IMG/VR virus record: IMGVR_UViG_3300044800_000053
Coordinates: 1-29,829 of that record
DNA: 29,829 nucleotides
Source of the DNA: a virus
Reading direction: 5' to 3' (one strand)
A program made the translations under genes and the position numbers. Under the pieces are notes generated by a model. The model ran no database searches. It was not told where the DNA came from and saw only the letters and a program-made list of their open reading frames with translations. Numbering within the stretch: the first letter of the stretch is position 1; each line of letters begins with the position of its first letter. Of this stretch, positions 2,922 to 26,153 are shown piece after piece.

Positions 2922-2945
2922 TAAAAAAGCCCCCGCTGTGGGGGC
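2922..2945 (-). terminator. Rho-independent terminator after tRNA-Thr
   Basis: On the minus strand a GCCCCC/GGGGGC stem of 6 bp (2929-2934 with 2940-2945) and a 5-base loop are followed by TTTTTTAT. It lies directly downstream of the tRNA 3' end. It would end or attenuate transcription coming from the terminase block before the portal block. Confidence 0.85.
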
Positions 2946-2947
2946 CA

Positions 2948-3019
2948 AGCCACCGATAGGATTTGAACCTATGACCTACCGCTTACAAGGCGATGGCTCT
3001 ACCGCTGAGCTACAGTGGC
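2948..3019 (-). tRNA. tRNA-Thr (anticodon TGT)
   Basis: A full cloverleaf is present on the minus strand. The acceptor is GCCACTG/CGGTGGC with one G-T pair, U8-A9 is followed by D-stem GCTC/GAGC, the anticodon arm is ATCGC-CTTGTAA-GCGGT, the variable loop is AGGTC, and the T-arm is ATAGG-TTCAAAT-CCTAT. The anticodon is TGT, reading ACA/ACN threonine codons. No CCA is encoded. It sits in the leftward operon right after the stop of the small zinc-finger gene and is followed by a terminator. Confidence 0.95.
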
Positions 3020-3483: not shown

Positions 3484-5124
3484 TCACCCTTGGCCTCCTT
3501 GTCTCCCGAACATCCACACCGGCCGCATCCCGTACGTCACTGCGGGGATCATGTCGGGGTGGTATGTGTCGTCGTCGATCATGCGCGTCAGACGGTCCTG
3601 CTCGTCGCGTGCGTACACCGTGCGCAGGCACTCCTCCCACAGAGGGCCGTCGCGTCGCACCTTGAAATGCCCCGTGCGCGCCTCGCCTTGCAACAACTCG
3701 AAGCCCATTTCCTTCTCTGCCTTGTACGCGGGGAGGATGGGCAGCTTGTAGGTTACGGCGAGGTCGTTCGGGGTGATCTTGTTCCCCCCAGTGTCGGCGT
3801 AGATGAGCAGGCTCTTGTTTTCTACGCGAGCGAACAGGGGAGACGTATTGATGTAATCTATGCCGGCCCGCGTGGCTTGCGCGATCTCCTCTGTGCTTTG
3901 CCGGCGGGCTTTCCACTCGTAGACGAGGAAGCGCTCGGGCCTGGTGATGCTGTAGGCGATGATTCCCAGTGCGTCGGCGTCCTCGAAGCCAAAGTCCATT
4001 CCGGCAGTGAACCGTATATCCGCGACCGACTGAGAGGCAACCCATGCGGAGAGCTCGTCATCCGTGAAGGCATTCGCGTCACCCAATCGAAGAACAAGCG
4101 CGTCGTCATCGTAGGCTATCCTCCCCAGGTATTCCCGCTGGTAGAGCGGGTCGGTCTCGCTGAGATTCTTCTCCGCGCGTATATTGGCAAGCACGTTCTC
4201 GTAGTCGGGTATGAATGGATTCTGCGATATGTTCCAGTTCAGCCGCATTGCGTTCGGATACAGCGGCTTTCCGTCAGACCACTGCCCGAGGTATAGCGCC
4301 TCCCAGTACGTTCCGCGCGTCCTCGGCCCCGTACCCCCGACAAGCAACTGGCCGTTGGTGTCGATAAGGGTCTGCGACAGGATGGACTCGATGAGGTAGA
4401 GCAGCTCCTTCTGCGACTGCGCCTCGTCGATGGCGATCCCGTCCCAGTACGGGCCGCGGTTTTTCTCCCTGTCGTCCTTGCTGCTATTTCCCCCGAACTG
4501 CATGAGCCCGCCGCCGTCCGTGACTATGCGCCCGTCTACCCGGCTGTGCTCTTTGATCTTGATGCCCAGCTCACCGAAGAGGTCGATCATCGGCTGCCAC
4601 ATGAGCCCCATGGCCTTCGTGATCGTCAGCCCAACGTACAGGCAGCGTGCGTTCGGCTTGCGGATGAACTTGTCAGCGAACCAGAGCAGGAACGCCTCCG
4701 TCTTCCCCGAGCGCCTGCCCGCCATGAGATACCCGTGCTTCGCCATGGAGAAGAGGATCTGCCGCTGTACGTCATGTGCACGCTTGTGCAATCGGTAGGA
4801 CAGGAATGCGGTCTCCCGCATCTCCCCACGGGTAAGCATCTCGTCGATCTCGTCGAGCACGTTTTCCTTGAACAGCCGTTCTGCGAGGAATCGCGCTTGC
4901 CACGTATCGGGCTTCTTCGCGTTCGTCTTGAAGTTGTTCAGGTAGCTGCGGAGGAACTCCTCCCCGTCCTTTCCTGCCATAAGCCCCTGGAATGCTTGCA
5001 GCGCGCGCTGCTTGTAGCCGGTCCCCGGCTTGCGTCCGACAGGATTACCGCTCTTGCCGGGCTGGAACATCTTCAAGTTCTTCTTTGCGGCTTCCTCTGT
5101 CTCGGGACTCTTGAAACGTGACAC
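3484..5124 (-). CDS. terL: Terminase large subunit (packaging ATPase/nuclease)
   Basis: I place the start at GTG 5124, which has GGAG seven bases upstream and lies just after the preceding stop; the open frame continues further but overlaps that gene. This gives 546 residues. The motor domain shows Walker A AGRRSGKT (about 135-142) and Walker B IAIDEA (230-235). The nuclease domain has acidic positions at D377 (AGMDFG), D444 (YADTGG) and D524 (YHPDMIP). It cuts and translocates phage DNA into the procapsid. The N-terminus (about 22-36) carries a PGKSGNPVGRKPG motif like DUF5681, usually found in separate small proteins next to terminases; no separate small subunit is seen. Confidence 0.92.
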   Translation of the reverse strand: MSRFKSPETEEAAKKNLKMFQPGKSGNPVGRKPGTGYKQRALQAFQGLMAGKDGEEFLRSYLNNFKTNAKKPDTWQARFLAERLFKENVLDEIDEMLTRGEMRETAFLSYRLHKRAHDVQRQILFSMAKHGYLMAGRRSGKTEAFLLWFADKFIRKPNARCLYVGLTITKAMGLMWQPMIDLFGELGIKIKEHSRVDGRIVTDGGGLMQFGGNSSKDDREKNRGPYWDGIAIDEAQSQKELLYLIESILSQTLIDTNGQLLVGGTGPRTRGTYWEALYLGQWSDGKPLYPNAMRLNWNISQNPFIPDYENVLANIRAEKNLSETDPLYQREYLGRIAYDDDALVLRLGDANAFTDDELSAWVASQSVADIRFTAGMDFGFEDADALGIIAYSITRPERFLVYEWKARRQSTEEIAQATRAGIDYINTSPLFARVENKSLLIYADTGGNKITPNDLAVTYKLPILPAYKAEKEMGFELLQGEARTGHFKVRRDGPLWEECLRTVYARDEQDRLTRMIDDDTYHPDMIPAVTYGMRPVWMFGRQGGQG

Positions 5125-5125
5125 G

Positions 5126-5467
5126 CTATCGCTCCAATAGTTCCGGGTTCTCGTAGATGTTGCCGATGACTTCGCATTCGTCCATTGGGCAGGAATACAT
5201 TTTTGGGTGACACCAGTGGAAAGCGGGACCAATGTCAAAGTCATCCCATTCAACGGGGCCTATGTCCTTAACCTTTGGATTTTGAAGAATATCCCCCTCG
5301 TAAATCTCCTTCCCGTTCTTGTCCTTCAGGCCAGTGTACTGCATGGGCTCCATATCGTTGGCAGAGCACATAGCAAGTACCCATGATGCGTTGACCTCAT
5401 CACCACGAGCACCGAAGACCATGCGTTTCTGTTGGGGATTCCACGCCCTGAACTTGATCTCTCTCAT
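5126..5467 (-). CDS. YopX-domain protein
   Basis: 113 residues from ATG 5467 (MREIKFRAWNPQQKRMV). The opening REIKFRAW motif, the central MQYTGLKDKNGKEIYEGDI block and the C-terminal EVIGNIYENPELL are hallmarks of the phage YopX family, widespread in phage early regions and of unknown biochemical role. The start overlaps the upstream stop (ATGA) and its TAG is one base before the terminase GTG. Confidence 0.93.
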   Translation of the reverse strand: MREIKFRAWNPQQKRMVFGARGDEVNASWVLAMCSANDMEPMQYTGLKDKNGKEIYEGDILQNPKVKDIGPVEWDDFDIGPAFHWCHPKMYSCPMDECEVIGNIYENPELLER

Positions 5468-7332: not shown

Positions 7333-7592
7333 GAGAACCGATATGCCTTACGCTTGGCAACCATGATTCGACGCTCCATGAGAAGATATTGTGTCGCACG
7401 TTCGCGAATAGCAAGCGGTGATGTTGCCCAAGCATTCACGTCACGATCAAGGCTTCGTAATCTGTCCCGCCACGCCTTGCGCATGTAGGAACGGCTAAAC
7501 AGTTTCTCTTCCTTGCGAGGGATAACCTTCCCCTCCCACAAGCACCTCCACCACCAATGAAAAATGCGCCATAGTTTCCTGATAGTTTTCAT
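7329..7592 (-). CDS. Small basic hypothetical protein
   Basis: 87 residues from ATG 7592 (MKTIRKLWRIFHWWWRCLWEG). Two in-frame GTGs precede it, but the GGGAGG site spaced seven bases from the ATG favours 7592. The N-terminus is Trp-rich and basic and the rest is Arg/Lys-rich and helical. Function unknown. Confidence 0.6.
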   Translation of the reverse strand: MKTIRKLWRIFHWWWRCLWEGKVIPRKEEKLFSRSYMRKAWRDRLRSLDRDVNAWATSPLAIRERATQYLLMERRIMVAKRKAYRFS

Positions 7593-7735
7593 CACCACGC
7601 CTCCCTAAAATGCGCAGTGATGGGCCTGCGCTGGTCATCTCTCGTCTCATCCAAAACAACAGAGTCGTGAAAGAACGGGCGGCTTGGCGCTCCCATCAGA
7701 GCCTGCCTATGTGAACGCGCAACGCGCGGTGTCAC
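7592..7735 (-). CDS. Very small hypothetical protein, 47 aa
   Basis: Proposed from GTG 7735, which overlaps the VRR-NUC stop (GTGA) and has GGAG eight bases upstream. Its TGA overlaps the next start (TGATG). Both junctions match the coupling pattern of the operon, the main reason to believe it. The peptide is basic with a central SRPFFHDSVVLDETRDDQ. No family recognised. Confidence 0.5.
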   Translation of the reverse strand: MTPRVARSHRQALMGAPSRPFFHDSVVLDETRDDQRRPITAHFREAW

Positions 7736-8046
7736 CGTTGTATCTCCTCCTGTAGCTCCTCCAGCGAGCGCACGACAAGGATCATGACGCCCTGATCCCG
7801 TGCCTTGGTGAGCCACGCCTCCTGGTCAGCGCGCAGCTTGTCGCGTCCTGCCTTGATCTCGACGGCGAGTATGTCGGGACGAATGTTGCCAATCTCATGC
7901 CACATCTTTGCTTTGCGAATCGCCAGCAGGTCAGCAATCCCGTTCTCCGCGGGGGGGTTGCGGCTGCTGTGCGTGAGGATCACGAGGAAGCCTATGAGCT
8001 CAAGGTAGCGCGCGCAGGCCGCCTCGATGCGGGAGTGTTCAGTCAC
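7732..8046 (-). CDS. VRR-NUC domain nuclease
   Basis: 104 residues from GTG 8046, with AGGAAG seven bases upstream. The motif series NGIADLLAIRK, AVEIKAGRDKLRADQ and the following helix, with GVMILVV, is the VRR-NUC fold of the PD-(D/E)xK nuclease superfamily. The Asp of IADLL and the Glu-x-Lys of VEIK form the metal-binding catalytic centre. Stand-alone phage VRR-NUC proteins are thought to cut branched or flapped DNA during replication or recombination. It sits just downstream of the replication-initiation gene. Confidence 0.9.
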   Translation of the reverse strand: MTEHSRIEAACARYLELIGFLVILTHSSRNPPAENGIADLLAIRKAKMWHEIGNIRPDILAVEIKAGRDKLRADQEAWLTKARDQGVMILVVRSLEELQEEIQR

Positions 8047-8437
8047 TGAATGACTTCCTGCGATACTCTGCGCGGGCCGGCTTTGATGCGCTTCGATGTC
8101 CCATGCTGTCTACTGGGTGCGGAAGAAAGTCACGGCATGACTTGCAGTATTCGTCGTATACCTCGCGTCCACACCCTTCGACGGTTCCCGCCAAAGTGTA
8201 ATAGGAATCCTTGTCACCGAATGAGTGCTTGTAGAGTTGGCCTTTCGCTGGAGATTCCTGAGTGACCAGTTTGAAGATTGGCACATGCTCACAAAACTTC
8301 ATGAATTCAGGGTTTCCGTGAAGACGACATCCGTCGACTCCTGTCGACTGGCACTCGATGTAGTCGGCCTTCACCGTCTTCAGCTTGCCGTGACAGTTGG
8401 GGCACATGCCCTTGCCTATCATTTCCTTTACGTTCAC
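8039..8437 (-). CDS. Cys-rich zinc-finger hypothetical protein
   Basis: 132 residues from GTG 8437, overlapping the replication-gene stop (GTGA) with an AGGAAG site. An N-terminal CPNCHGKL motif pairs with later cysteines (IECQSTGVDGC), and further Cys pairs (GCGREVYDEYCKSC) suggest two zinc sites. Position between the replisome organizer and the VRR-NUC nuclease hints at DNA metabolism. No specific family recognised. Confidence 0.65.
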   Translation of the reverse strand: MNVKEMIGKGMCPNCHGKLKTVKADYIECQSTGVDGCRLHGNPEFMKFCEHVPIFKLVTQESPAKGQLYKHSFGDKDSYYTLAGTVEGCGREVYDEYCKSCRDFLPHPVDSMGHRSASKPARAEYRRKSFSD

Positions 8438-9195
8438 CGCTTCCTGCCTTTCTGAATACTACCGCCTCTATCCTGGGCACGCTTGAGCCAATTGACTATG
8501 AAACGAGAGTAATTGCTCTTGTGCCCACGGGCCCCGTTTGTCTTGCACCACTCACCCATCTGCCGCAGTTCCATGTCAACGTCAACAGCAGGGTAAGCCT
8601 CAGCCCATAGTGCTACCTGTTCGTCTGCTATACCGTACCACATGGATTCAGAGAAGTTGTAGGTGACAGGCGCGGCCTTTGTACGCAAAGCCGTGCCAGA
8701 AGATGTACTCATCTTCTGCTCTTTCTTTTCTTCTGAGTCTGAGTCTGAGTCTGAGTCTGAGTCTGAGTCTATTGCGTCACGTGACGCCACAGTAACGTCA
8801 CATGGTAGAGATTTTAGCCTTTCTCTATATTTTTGGGTGCGTTCTCGGTTCAATTGACGTACATGTTCCATGCCATTTACGTTCTGATGCTTTTCCCAGT
8901 TGGTTAACGTAATGATTTCTTCATGCATGTATATCATCCCGAGACGCTGTAACGCTTGTAACGTCACACGAACTATCTCCACAGGCTGGTCAAAAACCTT
9001 AGCCAGCATGTCCGCGGTGAAGGCAATTTCGGGTGTCAGGTAGACGTTTCCGTTGTCGTTGACCTTGCCTGCCAGTACGATCAACTGAATCCACATCAAG
9101 CATATTTCCGAGCCCGACGGCATCGAACGAATGACCTTTATTTTCTCATCGTCGAACATGGCAGTCGAGAGCTTGACCCAGTGGATTTCAGACAC
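8434..9195 (-). CDS. Phage replisome organizer-type replication protein
   Basis: 253 residues from GTG 9195 behind AAGGAG. The N-terminal 110 residues (IHWVKLSTAMFDDEKIKVIRS, then MWIQLIVLAGKVNDNGNVYLT, ending TLTNWEKHQNV) match the phage replisome-organizer N-terminal domain, a winged-helix origin-binding module. A six-fold Asp-Ser linker (143-154) joins it to a C-terminal helical domain (about 175-245, WAEAYPAVDVDMELRQMGEWC) of the type that loads host helicase. It likely initiates phage replication with host DnaB-type helicase. Confidence 0.85.
   Translation of the reverse strand: MSEIHWVKLSTAMFDDEKIKVIRSMPSGSEICLMWIQLIVLAGKVNDNGNVYLTPEIAFTADMLAKVFDQPVEIVRVTLQALQRLGMIYMHEEIITLTNWEKHQNVNGMEHVRQLNRERTQKYRERLKSLPCDVTVASRDAIDSDSDSDSDSDSEEKKEQKMSTSSGTALRTKAAPVTYNFSESMWYGIADEQVALWAEAYPAVDVDMELRQMGEWCKTNGARGHKSNYSRFIVNWLKRAQDRGGSIQKGRKR
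8735..8770 (-). repeat. Hexanucleotide repeat, six units, in replication gene
   Basis: Six perfect copies of GAGTCT (plus strand) encode the Asp-Ser linker of the replication protein. The repeat keeps the reading frame whatever the copy number. It separates the DNA-binding and C-terminal domains. Confidence 0.95.
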
Positions 9196-9217
9196 GTGTG
9201 CTCCTTGCCAAAGAAAA

Positions 9218-9320
9218 GCGGCCCTGCGTGCTGCTGGTTGTCACCCCAGCGGAGCCACGGGGTAGCTCCTGCACGCAAGACCGCCTTGCATCCCGTGAAA
9301 ACCGCCGGTGACAAGCCGGC
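9218..9320 (-). other. Structured intergenic element: three-way junction with kissing loops
   Basis: The integrase-replication gap folds, with every pair Watson-Crick, into an outer stem (9225-9231 with 9271-9277, continued by 9218-9221 with 9281-9284 across a 3x3 internal loop). The stem closes hairpin 9233-9250 (GCTGG/CCAGC) and hairpin 9251-9269 (GGAGC/GCTCC), which abut with one unpaired base on each outer side. A third hairpin is at 9304-9320 (GCCGG/CCGGC). Loop 9238-9243 is complementary to loop 9309-9314, and loop 9256-9261 is complementary to linker 9292-9297. The replication ribosome binding site lies 10 bases beyond the stem. RNA leader, origin or attachment site are all possible. 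Confidence 0.6.
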
Positions 9321-9333
9321 ACCCATGAGCGTA

Positions 9334-10137
9334 TCACTTCCGCCTCCCCTTTGCAAGCACGTCCTCCGGGGCGAGCTCGTTGTGAACGTACGTACTGCTT
9401 GTGATTTCCACTGAGCTATGTCCCATGTACTTCGATACCGCGGTGAGATCCTTCCCCTCGGCCAGCATCCGCGTTGCCCAGGTATGGCGACAGCAGTGCG
9501 CTGACACCGTGCGCCCGATTGCCTTCAAACTGGCCCGGCGGATGCGGTTGGTGATCGTGGTGCGGTTGCCCGTGAAAGATGGCGCCTTGCCCCGCCAGTA
9601 CACCCTACGCTCCTTATTTCCCTTGCCTTGCAGCCTCACCTCACAGTGGTCTCCTGCCGTTTTCACGTCTTTCGCCATAATGCCCAGCGCCTCGGAGATA
9701 CGGCACCCCGTCCCGAGCATGAAACGCACGATAGCTGCCGTCCCGGGGTCCAGCGCTGCCAGGACGGCCCGCTCCTCCCCCCGCGTGAGTACCTTCTCCC
9801 TCCCCACGGCACGCGCCTGAACCTTCGGCGGCTTCAGCGCCTTCAACGCCTCTTCGATGCGGAATCGCGTGGCGGTGTCCATATTTGGGCTATGCATAAT
9901 TATGCGCCTAATGCATGACTTCGCGGCACTGATCTTGTGCGCACAGGTACCCGCCGTCCATCCCTTGCCCCCGCGGTCATGCACCACGTGCGCATGGTAC
10001 TGCTTCAGCGCGTCCTCCGTCAGCCCGCCGTGCTTGTCCAGGAACGCCACGAGGTTCACGGCGTCTCGGTAGTACACGCTGTCCCGCGGCGGGATCATGG
10101 CCGAAAGCGGGGATCCGCGGAGGGAGAGACTACTCAT
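9334..10137 (-). CDS. int: Tyrosine recombinase / integrase
   Basis: 267 residues from ATG 10137. An N-terminal SAM-like core-binding domain (about 20-105, SVYYRDAVNLVAFLDKHGG) precedes the catalytic domain. All catalytic residues are seen: R146 (GTGCRISEAL), Lys in GKGNKERRV (about 172-175), H214 and R217 (SAHCCRHTW), H240 (YMGHSS) and nucleophile Y250 (SSTYVH). It is shorter than lambda-type integrases and lacks an N-terminal arm-binding domain, more like XerC/D-type enzymes. It could integrate the phage or resolve genome multimers. No repressor gene is evident to prove lysogeny. Confidence 0.93.
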   Translation of the reverse strand: MSSLSLRGSPLSAMIPPRDSVYYRDAVNLVAFLDKHGGLTEDALKQYHAHVVHDRGGKGWTAGTCAHKISAAKSCIRRIIMHSPNMDTATRFRIEEALKALKPPKVQARAVGREKVLTRGEERAVLAALDPGTAAIVRFMLGTGCRISEALGIMAKDVKTAGDHCEVRLQGKGNKERRVYWRGKAPSFTGNRTTITNRIRRASLKAIGRTVSAHCCRHTWATRMLAEGKDLTAVSKYMGHSSVEITSSTYVHNELAPEDVLAKGRRK

Positions 10138-10365
10138 GCTTCCCCGACAGCCACCGACCGCGCCACGTCGTTGCTGCCTTGATCAGCGCGTCCACGTGCT
10201 CGTAGATCACGGCGAGTGACGTGTCCCGCATCTTCGCCTGCCCTGTGCGCAGCCTGGCCCGCCACGCTACTGCCTGCTGGTACGGGTAGTCTATGGCGTC
10301 ATCCCTGAGCTCCTGGAGGCTCTGCCTGTCCTTGCGGGATAGGTACTCTCCGCTCTGTCCGCTCA

Positions 10366-10366
<1 letters not shown>
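10130..10366 (-). CDS. Small hypothetical protein upstream of integrase
   Basis: 78 residues from ATG 10366, overlapping the TAA of the repeat-protein gene (TAATG), and its own end overlaps the integrase start by 8 bases. It is helical and charged, with YPYQQAVAWRARLRT in the middle. Function unknown. Confidence 0.65.
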
Positions 10367-10607
<241 letters not shown>

Positions 10608-10611
<4 letters not shown>

Positions 10612-10868
10612 TTTACTTTTCCGAAACTCTCAATAGCCGACAGTTGTACGTACCATTCCCCGCCCGGTAGTTTCTGCGCGTCCTTCCAACCCTTCTCGTT
10701 GAAAGCTCCCGTCTCGTACACAATAGCCGCATCGGTGAGGAGCACGCACGTATCGTTCACCCCTGACAGCTTTCCCGTGTAGATGTAGTTGGCGCAGAAA
10801 AGCGTGATTGGTTCCCCAAGAAACTTCTCAAGGCCCTCACCCTCAACCTGTTCAACAATCTTCTTCAT
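10608..10868 (-). CDS. Phage small conserved-type protein, possible Sm-like fold
   Basis: 86 residues from ATG 10868 with a GGGGGAAG ribosome binding site. The block ITLFCANYIYTGKLSGVNDTC followed by VLLTDAAIVYETG resembles a recurrent phage protein. Its alternating strands (short strand, tight turn, GVND-VLL-DA-IV) look like the Sm/Hfq core pattern. The Sm-like reading is inference. A bipartite regulatory motif lies 44 bases upstream. Confidence 0.65.
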
Positions 10869-10911
10869 CTCTTCCCCCTTGAAAATCTATAGCCATACGC
10901 CAACGGCGTAC

Positions 10912-10937
10912 TTTGAAACATTCCTGTTGTTTTGTTT
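10912..10937 (-). promoter_or_regulatory. Bipartite motif, copy A
   Basis: Plus-strand TTTGAAACAT, an 8-base spacer (10922-10929) and TTTTGTTT; on the coding strand AAACAAAA-N8-ATGTTTCAAA. It is upstream of the 86-residue gene starting at 10868 and overlaps the RNA ligase stop codon. The two boxes contain inverted AAACA/TGTTT half-sites, so it may be an operator, promoter element or RNA hairpin. Confidence 0.6.
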
Positions 10938-11487
10938 AGGCGTCGTGTCCCTTTCCCGAGTCGTCTTTCTCTATTGTCTTCTTGAAGTAGAGGCGACCCT
11001 GAATGTGGAAGATCACCACACCCTCGGGCTTCATGAATCCGGGGGCGGCGGAACTTCCCACTCTTTCCAGTGTGTTAAGGACGCTTGCTATTTGATAGGT
11101 GTCGAACGGCCCTTCGTAGAGGATGGGGACGCAATCGCAGCACCTTGGGCGCGCTACCTCGGCAGACCATTTCGACGTGTTGAACAGGGAGAATCGCTTG
11201 CGGTCCTGACCATACCTGCGCTGTATTCCCTGTCCCCACCATTCCCCGTAGTGACGGCCAACGCCGAGCCCCTCCCGCAATTCCTCCGCATGTTCGGCAA
11301 CCCATCGCGCGAAACCGAAATTGTCATCCTCCGGTGTGATCCATCGTGTTCTGCTTCCCGCAATAACGCGCCCGTCTTCCATGACAAGGATGCAACCGTT
11401 TGTCCCGTCGATTTTCTCCGTCACCACGCATTCACGCGATAGGCGAGGTATCTTCGTGAACTCCTCAAATAAAGGTGTGTCAATCAT
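10936..11487 (-). CDS. ATP-dependent RNA ligase (Rnl2-like)
   Basis: 183 residues from ATG 11487 behind a strong AAGGAGGAG site. Nucleotidyltransferase motifs are in order: motif I EKIDGTNG with adenylated K25, a GSRTRW segment (44-49), motif IIIa GEWWGQG (81-87), motif IV PEGVVIF (154-160) and motif V FKKTI (168-172). This is a minimal RNA-ligase-type adenylyltransferase core without the C-terminal domain of T4 Rnl2. Phage RNA ligases repair tRNAs cut by host defence nucleases. Here it shares the genome with a tRNA and a Ro60/Y RNA island. Confidence 0.87.
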   Translation of the reverse strand: MIDTPLFEEFTKIPRLSRECVVTEKIDGTNGCILVMEDGRVIAGSRTRWITPEDDNFGFARWVAEHAEELREGLGVGRHYGEWWGQGIQRRYGQDRKRFSLFNTSKWSAEVARPRCCDCVPILYEGPFDTYQIASVLNTLERVGSSAAPGFMKPEGVVIFHIQGRLYFKKTIEKDDSGKGHDA

Positions 11488-11499
11488 GTTTCTCCTCCT

Positions 11500-11525
11500 T
11501 TTGAAACATAAGGAAAGTTTTGTTT
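11500..11525 (-). promoter_or_regulatory. Bipartite motif, copy B
   Basis: Same two boxes as copy A (TTTGAAACAT and TTTTGTTT on the plus strand) with an unrelated 8-base spacer (11510-11517). It lies 12 bases before the RNA ligase ATG, next to the AAGGAGGAG ribosome binding site, and overlaps the stop of the upstream gene. Here the half-sites extend to GAAACA/TGTTTC. Confidence 0.65.
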
Positions 11526-11785
11526 CATTTCATATCTTCGGTAGGCTCTTCAAAGGTAAGATCAAAAACAGGGAGAACGCTTCCTACATAGTGACGATCT
11601 CCGAACTCCGACAAAATCCAGTGCACTTGACTTTTGTACCAATCTCCACGCCACGGGTCCGGGGCATACTTAAAATCGAATTGAGGGTTTGCACTGTGAA
11701 AAGACGTAGCTTTTTCTCCGAGTATTCTCTTCCCACTTTCGGAAAGTTTGAAATAGATCGTGTCATTCAATGAATGTGTTATCAT
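11525..11785 (-). CDS. Hypothetical protein, 86 aa
   Basis: Starts at ATG 11785 with GGGAGGAG upstream. The sequence is mixed alpha/beta, with FDFKYAPDPWRGDWYKSQVHW in the middle and an acidic C-terminus. No family recognised. With the RNA ligase gene it lies between inverted copies of TTTTGTTTAGG (10930 and 11809). Confidence 0.6.
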   Translation of the reverse strand: MITHSLNDTIYFKLSESGKRILGEKATSFHSANPQFDFKYAPDPWRGDWYKSQVHWILSEFGDRHYVGSVLPVFDLTFEEPTEDMK

Positions 11786-13780: not shown

Positions 13781-14566
13781 TCACGGCTTCCGGTAGACGT
13801 AGAACACGCCTTCGACATCGCACAGCAGCCCGTAGCCTTTCTGCCACACGGCCCACCGGGCTCTGGCGTGGTCCATGTGCTTCTTGTCGAGCTTGTCAGC
13901 TACGACTATGCATCGAGCAAGTAGAGCGGCGTCCCGTGCGGCGGCCCATGCGGCGTCCCGTGCGGCGGCCCGTGCGGCGTCCCGTGCGGCGTCCCCTGCG
14001 GCGGCCCATGCGGCGGCCCCTGCGGCGGCCCCTGCGGCGGCCCCTGCGGCGTCCCGTGCGGCGGCCCATGCGGCGGCCCCTGCGGCGGCCCCTGCGGCGG
14101 CCCCTGCGGCGGCCCATGCGGCGGCCCCTGCGGCGGCCCATGCGGCGGGATCTGCGGCGTCCCCTGCGGCGGCCCCTGCGGCGGCCCATGTCGTGAATAC
14201 CTTCCACGCCTTGAGTGTCTTGCCCTTGCCAGAGAAAAACGGAACGTCCTTTATCGTCGCGACAAACTCCATAGCGTCGTAGAAGAATTGCCGTTTCTTC
14301 CGCCACTTCGGCAATTCTGCGCGCACCATCTCCTCTTCCGTTTTCTTGGAGAACCATTCAGGCTTCGTTGGCTGGTCAATGCAAAACTCCCACTCAGTGA
14401 ATGGCTTGAAGTAGTCTCCATTCGGCGGGACCATCTCCACTCTGACAAAGTCAGACTTCCGCTTGTCGTCCAAGTGGTGATGGGCTATGATCTTCTCATG
14501 GCTATCGTCTGATGGATGCCATAGAACCTTCTCCCTCGTGACTACAAAGCTCGCCAGTCTGCACAT
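13781..14566 (-). CDS. Phage protein with Ala-rich tetrapeptide repeats
   Basis: 261 residues from ATG 14566 behind AGGAGGAGGAAGG. The N-terminal 120 residues (MCRLASFVVTREKVLW) look like a normal globular phage domain ending at KAWKVFTTW. A run of about 88 residues follows in four-residue units AAxA with Trp, Gly or Arg at one position and Ala or Asp at the next, then a normal C-terminal segment (ARWAVWQKGYGLL). Such Ala-rich inserts occur in phage proteins of similar start, as far as I recall. Predicted to be a long helix. Function unknown. Confidence 0.75.
   Translation of the reverse strand: MCRLASFVVTREKVLWHPSDDSHEKIIAHHHLDDKRKSDFVRVEMVPPNGDYFKPFTEWEFCIDQPTKPEWFSKKTEEEMVRAELPKWRKKRQFFYDAMEFVATIKDVPFFSGKGKTLKAWKVFTTWAAAGAAAGDAADPAAWAAAGAAAWAAAGAAAGAAAGAAAWAAARDAAGAAAGAAAGAAAWAAAGDAARDAARAAARDAAWAAARDAALLARCIVVADKLDKKHMDHARARWAVWQKGYGLLCDVEGVFYVYRKP
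13926..14189 (-). repeat. 12-base tandem array, 22 units
   Basis: 22 head-to-tail units of plus-strand form GCGGCKKCCCNT. Variation is almost confined to two places: G/T at one base (Ala versus Asp) and A/C/G at another (Trp, Gly or Arg in an NGG codon). One unit differs further (GCGGCGGGATCT). All units preserve the frame of the 261-residue protein. Confidence 0.95.
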
Positions 14567-17838: not shown

Positions 17839-17867
17839 ATATTATCCTATCGACGGTAGGTTGTCAA
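17839..17867 (-). promoter_or_regulatory. Leftward sigma-70-type promoter
   Basis: On the minus strand TTGACA (17862-17867), a 17-base spacer and TAATAT (17839-17844). It fires into the leftward early genes. The spacer contains a 15-base dyad that could be an operator. Confidence 0.8.
17846..17860. promoter_or_regulatory. Dyad operator candidate in promoter spacer
   Basis: CCTATCGACGGTAGG is a 15-base inverted repeat with one non-complementary pair, centred on 17853 between the -10 and -35 of the leftward promoter. A protein bound here would block RNA polymerase. No matching copy was noticed at the rightward promoter. Confidence 0.5.
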
Positions 17868-17870
17868 TAG

Positions 17871-17903
17871 AGAATATTTATTTATTATTTGGATATATAT
17901 TCT
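17871..17903. promoter_or_regulatory. A/T-rich dyad between divergent promoters
   Basis: AGAATAT (17871-17877) and ATATTCT (17897-17903) are exact inverted repeats separated by 19 A/T-rich bases. They lie 3 and 2 bases outside the two -35 hexamers. They could act as UP elements for both promoters or as a binding site that controls both. Confidence 0.5.
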
Positions 17904-17905
17904 TG

Positions 17906-17934
17906 TTGACATTCCTGACGTGTCGGGTTAATAT
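17906..17934 (+). promoter_or_regulatory. Rightward promoter of the Y RNA / Ro60 island
   Basis: TTGACA (17906-17911), a 17-base spacer and TAATAT (17929-17934): the same hexamers and spacing as the opposite promoter. The expected start near 17941 coincides with the first base of the first Y RNA-like hairpin, as expected for an RNA that needs no leader. Confidence 0.85.
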
Positions 17935-17940
17935 CGTGTC

Positions 17941-18019: not shown

Positions 18020-18166
18020 AAGCCGTGGCGAAAGAAGTGGGATACTTCACTGTTAATGAAGAGGTCGTTGGTTCGAGTCCAACCGTGTAGGCGCAAGCCT
18101 GCATGTAGCTCAGTTGGCAGAGCGCTGGCGAAAGCCGCTCCCAGTTCGACTGATCCCGGCTTTTTT
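18020..18166 (+). ncRNA. yrlA: Y RNA 2 with circularly permuted tRNA-Asn-like module (YrlA-type)
   Basis: Ro60-binding stem: AAGCCG/CGGCTT (18020-18025 with 18157-18162), bulged T18026, GG/CC, loop CGAAA against GACTGAT, GAA/TTC, a G-G mismatch, and TGGGA/TCCCA. The 5' strand resembles the conserved CGAAGG-type element of animal and bacterial Y RNAs. Inside lies a tRNA-like module: anticodon arm with loop CTGTTAA (18045-18061), variable AGGTC, T-arm with TTCGAGT (18067-18083), acceptor strands 18084-18092 and 18097-18105 joined by GCAA, U8-A9, and D-arm 18108-18123. A GGC-GAAA-GCC hairpin completes the loop. In characterised systems the tRNA-like end binds PNPase-type effectors. Confidence 0.85.
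18155..18166 (+). terminator. Intrinsic terminator at 3' end of Y RNA 2
   Basis: The 3' strand of the Y RNA basal stem (CGGCTT) runs into six T residues (18161-18166). The basal helix of the RNA therefore doubles as the terminator hairpin, a common layout for small RNAs. Confidence 0.75.
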
Positions 18167-18176
18167 GTAGACAATA

Positions 18177-18251
18177 GGGCTTGGCGAAGGTTGACGGTTC
18201 CTTCAACTGTGGATTGAAATAGACCCGTCTCCGTTTATTCCAGCCCTTTTT
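18177..18251 (+). ncRNA. Y RNA 3 (short, without tRNA module)
   Basis: Basal stem GGGCT/AGCCC (18177-18181 with 18242-18246), bulged T18182, GG/CC, loop CGAA against GTTTATT, GG/CC, a TT/T mismatch, and GACGG/CCGTC (18193-18197 with 18225-18229). It ends in a TTCAA-CTGTGGA-TTGAA hairpin. The Ro-binding half matches RNA 2 element by element but the tRNA-like module is replaced by a simple hairpin. It is followed by five T residues and then the Ro60 ribosome binding site. Confidence 0.8.
18240..18251 (+). terminator. Terminator / attenuator before Ro60
   Basis: The basal stem of Y RNA 3 ends CCAGCCC followed by TTTTT (18247-18251). Because no other promoter was found before the Ro60 ATG at 18269, Ro60 mRNA probably arises by read-through. 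Binding of Ro60 to the nascent RNA could alter termination. Confidence 0.65.
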
Positions 18252-18268
18252 ATTTGAAGGAGGAAGGT

Positions 18269-19618
18269 ATGGCGAGGGTGAATCTAAGTCCTACGGTCTC
18301 CATCAGAACGCACGAAGGCGCACCGGCACGGCGCATCAATCCCGAGCAGAAACTACGCCGATCCGTCATGGCGTGCCTACTATGGGAAAACACCTTCTAT
18401 GAGGAAGGCGCAGACATCGCAACACGGATAGCGGAGACAGTCCGTCTCCTCCCCGCGGAGAAGGTTTCCGCTATCGCTATCGAGGCTCGGTCGAAGATGA
18501 ACCTTCGGCACGCCCCCCTGCTGCTGGCCCGCGAGATGGCACGTACGTTCCACGGCAAGATCGTTGCCGACACCATCGAAGCCGTAGTCCAGCGCGCGGA
18601 TGAGCTGGCAGAGTTCCTTGCCCTGTACTGGAAGGACGGACGGCAGCCACTGTCCGCGCAGGTCAAGAAAGGTCTCGCGCGAGCATTCGTAAAGTTCAAC
18701 GAGTACCAGCTCGCCAAGTACAACCGCGACAACGGCGTGAAACTCCGCGACGTTCTCTTTCTCTGCCACGCAAGGCCGAGGGACGCCGAGCAGGAAGCAC
18801 TCTGGAAGCGGCTGATCGATGGCACCATTGCTATCCCCGACACCTGGGAGACGGAACTGTCCGCCGGCAAGGACAAGCGGGAGACGTTTTCTCGCCTTAT
18901 GGTGGAGGGAAAGCTCGGCGGGCTTGCGCTTCTCCGCAATCTGCGCAATATGGGCGAGGCTGGCGTACCCACCGGAGAGATAAAGGCCGCAATCATCAGG
19001 ATGCGCACAGACAGGATTCTCCCGTTCCGTTTCGTTGCCGCTTCCCGGTACGCCCCCGCCCTTGAGCCTCAGCTTGAGGAGGCGATGTTCAGGAACGTGA
19101 AGGATCTCGGGGAACTGAGCGGAGAAGTCACCGTCCTTGTTGACGTATCTGGATCGATGAATTCCAAGCTGTCCGAGAAAGGCGATCTGACACGAATAGA
19201 TGCCGCCGCCTCGCTTGCCATGATACTCCGCGAGGTATGCCAGAACGTCAACGTGTACGCCTTCTCTGACCAGTTGGCTATCATCCCCCCGCGCCGCGGA
19301 TTCGCTCTCCGTGATGCCATCGAGAAGTCACTCCCGCATGGCGGTACCTATCTCGGAGCGGCAGTCCAGAAGGTGGGGCAACTGCATCCGAACGCCATGC
19401 TTGTCACCATCACCGACGAGCAGAGCCACGATGCCGTACCGAACCCGGTAGGACGTGGATTCCTGATCAATGTGGCAAGCAATCAGAACGGCGTCGGGTA
19501 TGGGAAGTGGACGCACATTGACGGGTTCTCGGAGAACGTCGTACGCTACATCATGGAGTCGAGCATTGAGAGACACGCTTCGGGAACACCTGAAACGCAT
19601 AGCGAAAATAAAGAGTGA
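18269..19618 (+). CDS. rsr: Ro60 / Rsr orthologue (TROVE and vWA domains)
   Basis: 449 residues from ATG 18269, directly behind AAGGAGGAAGG; a TTG five codons earlier is inside that site and not used. The N-terminal two thirds are the TROVE HEAT-repeat ring that binds Y RNA on its outer face and RNA 3' ends in its hole. The C-terminal vWA domain has a complete MIDAS: DVSGS (D292, S294, S296), T360 in HGGT and D383 in TITDE. It is shorter than typical Ro60 (about 530). Known bacterial Ro60 proteins work with Y RNA and PNPase in RNA decay. It lies downstream of three Y RNA-like genes on the only plus-strand island in the window. Confidence 0.92.
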   Translation: MARVNLSPTVSIRTHEGAPARRINPEQKLRRSVMACLLWENTFYEEGADIATRIAETVRLLPAEKVSAIAIEARSKMNLRHAPLLLAREMARTFHGKIVADTIEAVVQRADELAEFLALYWKDGRQPLSAQVKKGLARAFVKFNEYQLAKYNRDNGVKLRDVLFLCHARPRDAEQEALWKRLIDGTIAIPDTWETELSAGKDKRETFSRLMVEGKLGGLALLRNLRNMGEAGVPTGEIKAAIIRMRTDRILPFRFVAASRYAPALEPQLEEAMFRNVKDLGELSGEVTVLVDVSGSMNSKLSEKGDLTRIDAAASLAMILREVCQNVNVYAFSDQLAIIPPRRGFALRDAIEKSLPHGGTYLGAAVQKVGQLHPNAMLVTITDEQSHDAVPNPVGRGFLINVASNQNGVGYGKWTHIDGFSENVVRYIMESSIERHASGTPETHSENKE

Positions 19619-25298: not shown

Positions 25299-26153
25299 TT
25301 ACTGCCCCGTAAAGTCGCTGCCAGGGTTGGCCTTCGGATTCATCCCCGCGTAGAGCATGCGCTGCTGCGCCTCCGGTCCAAACTCCGCAAGCCTTGCCTG
25401 ATGCTGTGCCTCGATGGCAGCGAGAGTGTTAGCGAGCTCCGCCTTCTTCTCAACGGGAAGGTTCGCCACGTTCATCTGGTTTTGCACGTTCATGCGATCA
25501 AGCATATACTGCTGATCGATAGCCTGCTGTTTCGCCTGTATCTCTGCCGCCGCTTTCTGCTTGGCGAGGTCTGCCTGCTGTGCGCGTTCGATGTCACCAC
25601 GTGTCTGAGCATCTCCCTTGCCTTGCAGCCCGAGACCCCACCTCTGGAGAAAGTCCCCGGCGCCCTTTCCGAGATTGGCGAGCATAGCACCATAGTCGGT
25701 ATCGCTTTTCGGAGCCACGGGTACTACTACATCACCTTCGGGACCGGTGTGAAGGACTCGCGTCAGCATGTCCTTTAGCGTAGGCGCCGCCTTCGCCATC
25801 ATGGGGACCGTTGCAATCTGAGCAGGAGCCGGGGCTACTTTCGGGATGTCGGGAGGAGGTGGGGGAGACGCCGTAGAGGGTACCACGTGGCCCGATTTCT
25901 CCAGGATACCGGGTGCTGCGGCAACGTCTCCCGCGGAGAGTCCGAGAGCTCCGGCGTCCTGCGCCGACATGATATTCGCAGGTTCGGAAGCCTTCCCAAC
26001 ACCAGGGTTGGAGGTGACATTCGCTAATGCTTGTCGGGTAGGATCAATGGGGAGTGGACTCCCGGCAAGGCCGAGGATTTTCTCCTCATCGGGAGTCATC
26101 TCAGGTGAAGGCTTGGCGGTCTTGCGTGCAGGGGTAGCGCCAAAATCAGGCAT
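25299..26153 (-). CDS. Virion-associated hypothetical protein, 284 aa
   Basis: ATG 26153 (MPDFGATPARKT) with CGGAGG upstream; a further upstream ATG is inside the previous gene. The first half is Pro/Ala-rich and low-complexity. The second half is a Gln/Ala/Lys coiled coil (ADLAKQKAAAEIQAKQQAI). Like its neighbour, it may be a capsid-internal protein. No enzyme motif. Confidence 0.6.
   Translation of the reverse strand: MPDFGATPARKTAKPSPEMTPDEEKILGLAGSPLPIDPTRQALANVTSNPGVGKASEPANIMSAQDAGALGLSAGDVAAAPGILEKSGHVVPSTASPPPPPDIPKVAPAPAQIATVPMMAKAAPTLKDMLTRVLHTGPEGDVVVPVAPKSDTDYGAMLANLGKGAGDFLQRWGLGLQGKGDAQTRGDIERAQQADLAKQKAAAEIQAKQQAIDQQYMLDRMNVQNQMNVANLPVEKKAELANTLAAIEAQHQARLAEFGPEAQQRMLYAGMNPKANPGSDFTGQ

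Follow-up and report, generated by a model that had tools for sequence, protein, structure and literature searches.

The attenuator of plasmid pIP501 makes use of competing folds, and the repC gene of pT181 is governed by a comparable antisense-controlled attenuator. In the P1-P7 c4 RNA system, short complementary segments lie in an untranslated transcript upstream of the replication genes, with termination as the output. For pIP501 repR/RNAIII, premature termination in the leader of the replication-initiation gene is under antisense control (PMC4981023). In P4, the leader-derived CI RNA silences the replication genes by premature termination, pairing upstream and downstream of itself (PMC4825925). 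Here we analysed a virus record of 29,829 bases, the whole of which is referred to as the window, in which a folded element had been predicted at 9218-9320, in the gap that separates integrase and replication genes. We propose that the element is a transcription attenuator in the untranslated int-rep leader that controls rep, a reading to which we give an even chance.

Genetic context of the int-rep gap

Nearly all main genes of the record are on the minus strand. The following genes and signals frame the element:

3484-5253, in a gene block that is nearly all minus strand: terminase
8434..9195, minus strand: replisome organiser gene rep (Phage_rep_org_N; Pfam PF09681, E 7e-41)
9206..9201, minus strand: rep ribosome binding site AAGGAG, seen in the sequence, 5 nt before the GTG start (9195-9193)
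9334..10137, minus strand: tyrosine integrase gene int (Pfam PF00589, E 1.6e-20; catalytic motifs R, HxxR, H and Y in the translation)
10936-11487, in a gene block that is nearly all minus strand: RNA ligase

The gene at 876-2645 probably encodes the portal protein, as judged from its adjacency to the terminase gene, which is conserved in relatives. On the basis of portal and terminase, this is a tailed phage with double-stranded DNA. Since the genes on both flanks are read from the minus strand, the 138 bases that separate int from rep are made as minus-strand RNA. Within 7500-11600 there is no sigma-70-like promoter scoring at least 9/12; the same threshold and range gave no counter-transcript promoter, the best plus-strand match being 8/12 at 9053. 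A leftward promoter (10/12) is located at 17867, about 8.5 kb upstream of the element. It is one of two overlapping divergent promoter-like sites (17850-17935; TTGACA-17-TAATAT at 17867, minus, and 17906, plus) that lie between the leftward gene block and a Y RNA/Ro60 unit and probably constitute the main control region. This unit consists of a Ro60/TROVE gene on the plus strand (18254-19618; Pfam TROVE, E 3e-15), preceded by a tRNA-like RNA (18020-18180, plus) ending in GGCUUUUUU, which gave Rfam matches below threshold, to YrlA at 28.9 bits and to tRNA at 27.9 bits. The two are likely a phage Ro60 and Y RNA pair; the RNA ligase listed above is encoded by the same phage.

Three repetitive regions were seen in the window as well. 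The middle of the replisome organiser carries an Asp-Ser repeat (8732-8773) that derives from a 6-base DNA repeat, TCTGAG, and may be a slippage site. In a low-complexity minus-strand frame near int (10366-10611), Ser/Arg/Gly/Trp repeats follow one another, and a region of Ala-rich repeats (13781-14566, minus) has long frames in several readings.

The branched stem and its U tract

All pairings and coordinates named in the original prediction are present in the sequence. Read as RNA, the element comprises these parts:

9215..9287, minus strand: three-way-junction RNA, an outer stem that encloses hairpins B and C, with unpaired junction bases 9270 and 9232
9269-9262/9258-9251, minus strand: hairpin B, 8 bp, loop CCC (9261-9259)
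9250-9246/9237-9233, minus strand: hairpin C, 5 bp, loop GGUGACAA (9245-9238)
9320-9316/9308-9304, minus strand: hairpin A, 5-bp stem, loop CUUGUCA (9315-9309), seen in the sequence
9217..9210, minus strand: U tract UUUUCUUU, immediately following the outer stem's GC-rich portion

In the minus-strand RNA the outer stem is followed by an unpaired A, hairpin B, the abutting hairpin C and another unpaired A. The outer stem (9287-9271/9231-9215) has 17 bp, three of which are G-U. The pairing had been described as perfect, which holds over the full length of the minus-strand RNA but not for the plus strand, where the G-U pairs become C/A mismatches. All G-U pairs of the junction are thus specific to the minus strand, from which int and rep are read. 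The fold is extremely stable: the minus-strand RNA of 9214-9287 reaches -51.4 kcal/mol compared with -29.2 +/- 3.15 kcal/mol for dinucleotide shuffles (RNAfold; z -7.1), none of the 500 shuffles was as stable, and no 74-nt window elsewhere in the record, whichever the strand, has a lower energy. The plus-strand RNA attains merely z -2.4, owing to the mismatches, and the single-stranded DNA folds are also weaker (z -3.8 minus, -2.6 plus). Hairpin A by itself is unexceptional on the minus strand (9302-9330, z -0.03). An Rfam covariance-model search at the element, up to E 5, returned no known leader, riboswitch or phage RNA.

These results bear on the suggestion that the element could be a single-strand replication origin or a folded recombination site for the integrase next to it. 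Such a DNA-level role, for example as an attachment site or a site of inversion, received little positive support in our analysis. It would agree with the location beside int and rep. Arms A and C, both 5-7/8-5 palindromes, have TTGTCA in common in opposite orientation, with TTGTCACC inverted, and TTGTCACC occurs four times in the record where 0.8 would be expected. However, the wobble pairs and the U tract indicate an RNA made from one strand, and the DNA folds are the weaker ones. Furthermore, there is no dif-like site, the extended arm has no further copies in the record, iteron-like direct repeats are missing near rep, and the phage is of the tailed, double-stranded DNA type. We therefore regard a DNA-level function as quite improbable. 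A tRNA-derived attP for arms A and C was also considered and dropped, as there was no tRNA match at the arms. Chance or a coding constraint is more improbable still. If the region were translated, the 62-codon minus-strand frame from the ATG at 9326 would be a candidate, since it is open through 9138 and spans the element. A PHROGs search gave no match for this frame or for the plus-strand frame, and the z-score of -7.1 as well as the T tract and ribosome binding site in place speak against this explanation.

The element had been said to end just before the rep ribosome binding site. The site is indeed 3 nt on, but the element itself continues into a T tract (9217-9210) that had been overlooked. 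The GC-rich stem stops at 9218 and is succeeded by UUUUCUUU, GGC, AAGGAG and the GTG at 9195. Eight-base stretches with 7 or more T start at just 8 of the roughly 29,800 minus-strand positions and form six tracts. None of the other tracts has a stem before it nearly as strong as that at 9217, which makes this the top-ranked stem-plus-T-tract site of the record. As in intrinsic terminators, a GC-rich stem adjoins a U tract on the transcribed strand; a single short-loop hairpin, another feature of such terminators, is absent, because the junction stem is branched. For the same reason a terminator scanner requiring a loop of 3-8 missed the element, and scanners of this kind miss branched elements in general. 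From its sequence, the junction together with the U tract looks like an intrinsic terminator with a branched stem. Intrinsic terminators do appear in this phage, since the T tract at 2928 follows a tRNA-Thr gene with an ordinary GC hairpin. This tRNA-Thr(TGT) gene (window 2927-3019, minus) lies inside the late gene block, with the canonical terminator directly after it and before the next gene.

As GGC alone separates UUUUCUUU from AAGGAG, there is no room for a promoter between terminator and rep ribosome binding site. The first base of the junction stem lies 46 nt from the int stop codon (9336-9334). Ribosomes failed to repress terminators at distances above about 27-30 nt from a stop codon in an E. 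coli system (PMC4824070). By this spacing limit translation of int should not disarm the terminator, bearing in mind that the host here may differ from Escherichia coli.

The 5' arm of the junction (9268-9285) has an 18-base exact inverted match at 26115-26132, some 20-40 nt into the gene at 25299-26153; by a rough estimate, about 0.03 such pairs are expected in the record. Because both sites are transcribed leftward, the respective RNAs are perfectly complementary. Targeting of this gene by the junction arm through RNA-RNA pairing was considered as an explanation, but the duplex energies are unexceptional.

A predicted competing hairpin and models of rep control

Two loop matches had been noted, and we first read them as tertiary contacts. 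The first, between 9238-9243 and 9309-9314, is present within an 8-base inverted repeat, TTGTCACC (9238-9245)/GGTGACAA (9307-9314). The second, CACGGG (9256-9261)/CCCGTG (9292-9297), is likewise real as a match, but in the best fold just 9259-9261 belong to the loop, whereas 9256-9258 are part of the stem. Together with ATGCAAG/CTTGCGT, these inverted repeats nest in one long hairpin:

9233..9320, minus strand: competing nested hairpin, 9314-9307/9245-9238, 9297-9292/9261-9256 and 9291-9285/9279-9273 plus flanking pairs

Since all three repeats fit into a single hairpin, we replaced the tertiary-contact reading by one in which the matches are helices of a competing fold; a kissing contact between loops A and C is possible.

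According to the calculated folds, the nested hairpin and the three-way junction are mutually exclusive. There are hence two alternative folds, one of them terminator-like, as expected for an attenuator. The nested hairpin has a probability of about 0.8-0.99 in transcripts ending at 9234-9228 and is lost once 9225 is reached. In the full-length leader the terminator fold is favoured by about 17-19 kcal/mol, and the direct refolding path between the two folds has a barrier of about 22 kcal/mol. We compared the pairing with 1000 randomisations in which every stem of the junction and of hairpin A was kept. None of these matched the 22 long-range pairs of the nested hairpin, a loop A to loop C match of six bases was found in three, and an 8-base run, the longest, in 16; these rates are optimistic, because the regions counted were picked after the fold had been seen. 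The energy of the alternative fold is unexceptional and was equalled in 316-437 of the 1000 randomisations. In 14 of 15 settings of a crude stepwise co-transcriptional simulation, the terminator had yet to form at the U tract. Of the randomised controls, half were trapped likewise, so that the simulation is uninformative on regulation and a default read-through deduced from it was dropped.

In the attenuator model, RNA polymerase passing through int would make the leader. If the three-way junction forms, outer stem and UUUUCUUU would act as an intrinsic terminator, and the transcript would stop several bases short of the rep ribosome binding site. Should the leader zip into the nested hairpin instead (the 5' part, 9320-9285, with hairpins B and C), the terminator stem would have its 5' arm trapped and the polymerase would read through into rep and the genes beyond. 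We infer that termination takes place, that the leader makes use of the second fold, and that the balance is set by some signal, be it a protein, a small molecule or another RNA. The element thereby probably controls the timing of phage DNA copying. That it is a regulatory RNA leader, as the original prediction had offered among other options, is backed by the transcribed strand, the strand-specific wobble pairs, the U tract, the rep ribosome binding site and the exclusive second fold.

It is conceivable, if somewhat unlikely, that the element is a plain branched terminator or a stem for RNA processing or stability. It would then lower rep expression by a fixed amount, or the rep mRNA would be protected or cut (e.g. 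by RNase III), and the second fold would be a by-product of composition. This would be in line with the stem and U tract being the statistically significant part, with the ordinary energy of the alternative fold and with the trapping of half of the controls. On the other hand, given the stems, both the 22 long-range pairs and the loop-loop match of 6 bases are rare, and a site 3 nt ahead of the rep ribosome binding site suggests control of rep, not merely the end of int.

A different model resembles the immunity RNA of P4. Here the terminated leader would survive, and its loop GGUGACAA would pair in trans with UUGUCACC of new leaders, block the read-through fold and shut off the replication genes. 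Complementary 8-mers do sit in the leader and in the loop of the terminator product, and P4 CI RNA blocks replication-gene expression via premature termination (PMC4825925). Yet the element gave no Rfam match and offers one complementary 8-base site, while CI RNA pairs with two (PMC4825925). We thus consider this model improbable. The chances are slimmer still for the idea that the branched terminator yields its own trans-acting inhibitor, in which loop GGUGACAA acts on the antiterminator arm UUGUCACC of later transcripts and past termination enforces future termination. If true, such a self-inhibiting leader would amount to an RNA immunity that reinforces itself and keeps the replication genes off, in a tailed phage without relation to P4.

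Relatives and comparison with known systems

In the phages, plasmids, viral contigs and genomes searched, no homologue of the element was detected, whether by DNA, by pattern or with a covariance model. With blastn, phages and plasmids gave short chance matches only, and two exact pattern scans of viral contigs were without match. One pattern match (L116) was discarded as chance, because one arm lies within the apparent anticodon arm of a tRNA gene, and at two viral-contig matches of the 18-mer the fold is absent. The search with a covariance model (R1) covered 28 viral records and about 790 genomes as well as related loci. Its sole match (L113) was rejected, since many pairs are broken and about one such match is expected per 400 genomes. 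Relatives of the integrase were not confirmed in viral contigs, with weak matches only in genomes. The rep gene has many distant relatives in Firmicutes phages; the upstream regions of 32 of them contain no similar three-way junction. In an unrelated AT-rich phage (L049/L050), a simple terminator of great strength (22 bp followed by U7, z -7 to -8) precedes the replisome organiser by about 100 nt.

The nearest phage (L087; portal 65%, terminase 54%) has a 99-nt branched fold (z -3.8) just before a Lin1244_N-type gene, without a recognised int there. Its closing stem, GUUGCCG/CGGCAAC, runs into UUUUC (end CUUUUC) and is followed by an AAGAGG ribosome binding site. Compared with the present element, the U tract is shorter, the junctions are looser and the sequence is non-homologous. 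The likeness is one of parallel architecture, not of homology. This comparable layout before a different replication-type gene suggests that branched terminators may also occur upstream of replication genes in further environmental phages. If the element works as proposed, a branched-terminator attenuator would add to the means of timing replication in temperate phages, beside repressors and antitermination proteins.

With intrinsic terminators the element shares a GC-rich sense-strand stem followed by a U tract (7 in 8). It differs in that the stem closes over two hairpins instead of a small loop and sits within an operon, just before a ribosome binding site. Leader attenuators and the expression platforms of riboswitches have, like the calculated folds here, mutually exclusive terminator and antiterminator structures upstream of a ribosome binding site; in contrast to both, there is no known aptamer and no sequence conserved outside the record. 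Altogether, the element is probably a variant of the transcription attenuator with a branched terminator. By analogy, the functionally closest systems appear to be replication-gene leader attenuators, as in pIP501, and P4 CI RNA immunity. As in P4 CI and c4, complementary segments lie in one untranslated transcript before a replication gene, with termination as the presumed output, but there is no sequence or Rfam relation and any action in trans is hypothetical. As in pIP501 and pT181, termination would occur in the leader ahead of a replication gene, with competing folds, which are predicted here; the gene in question, however, encodes a phage replisome organiser instead of a plasmid Rep, and the terminator is branched.
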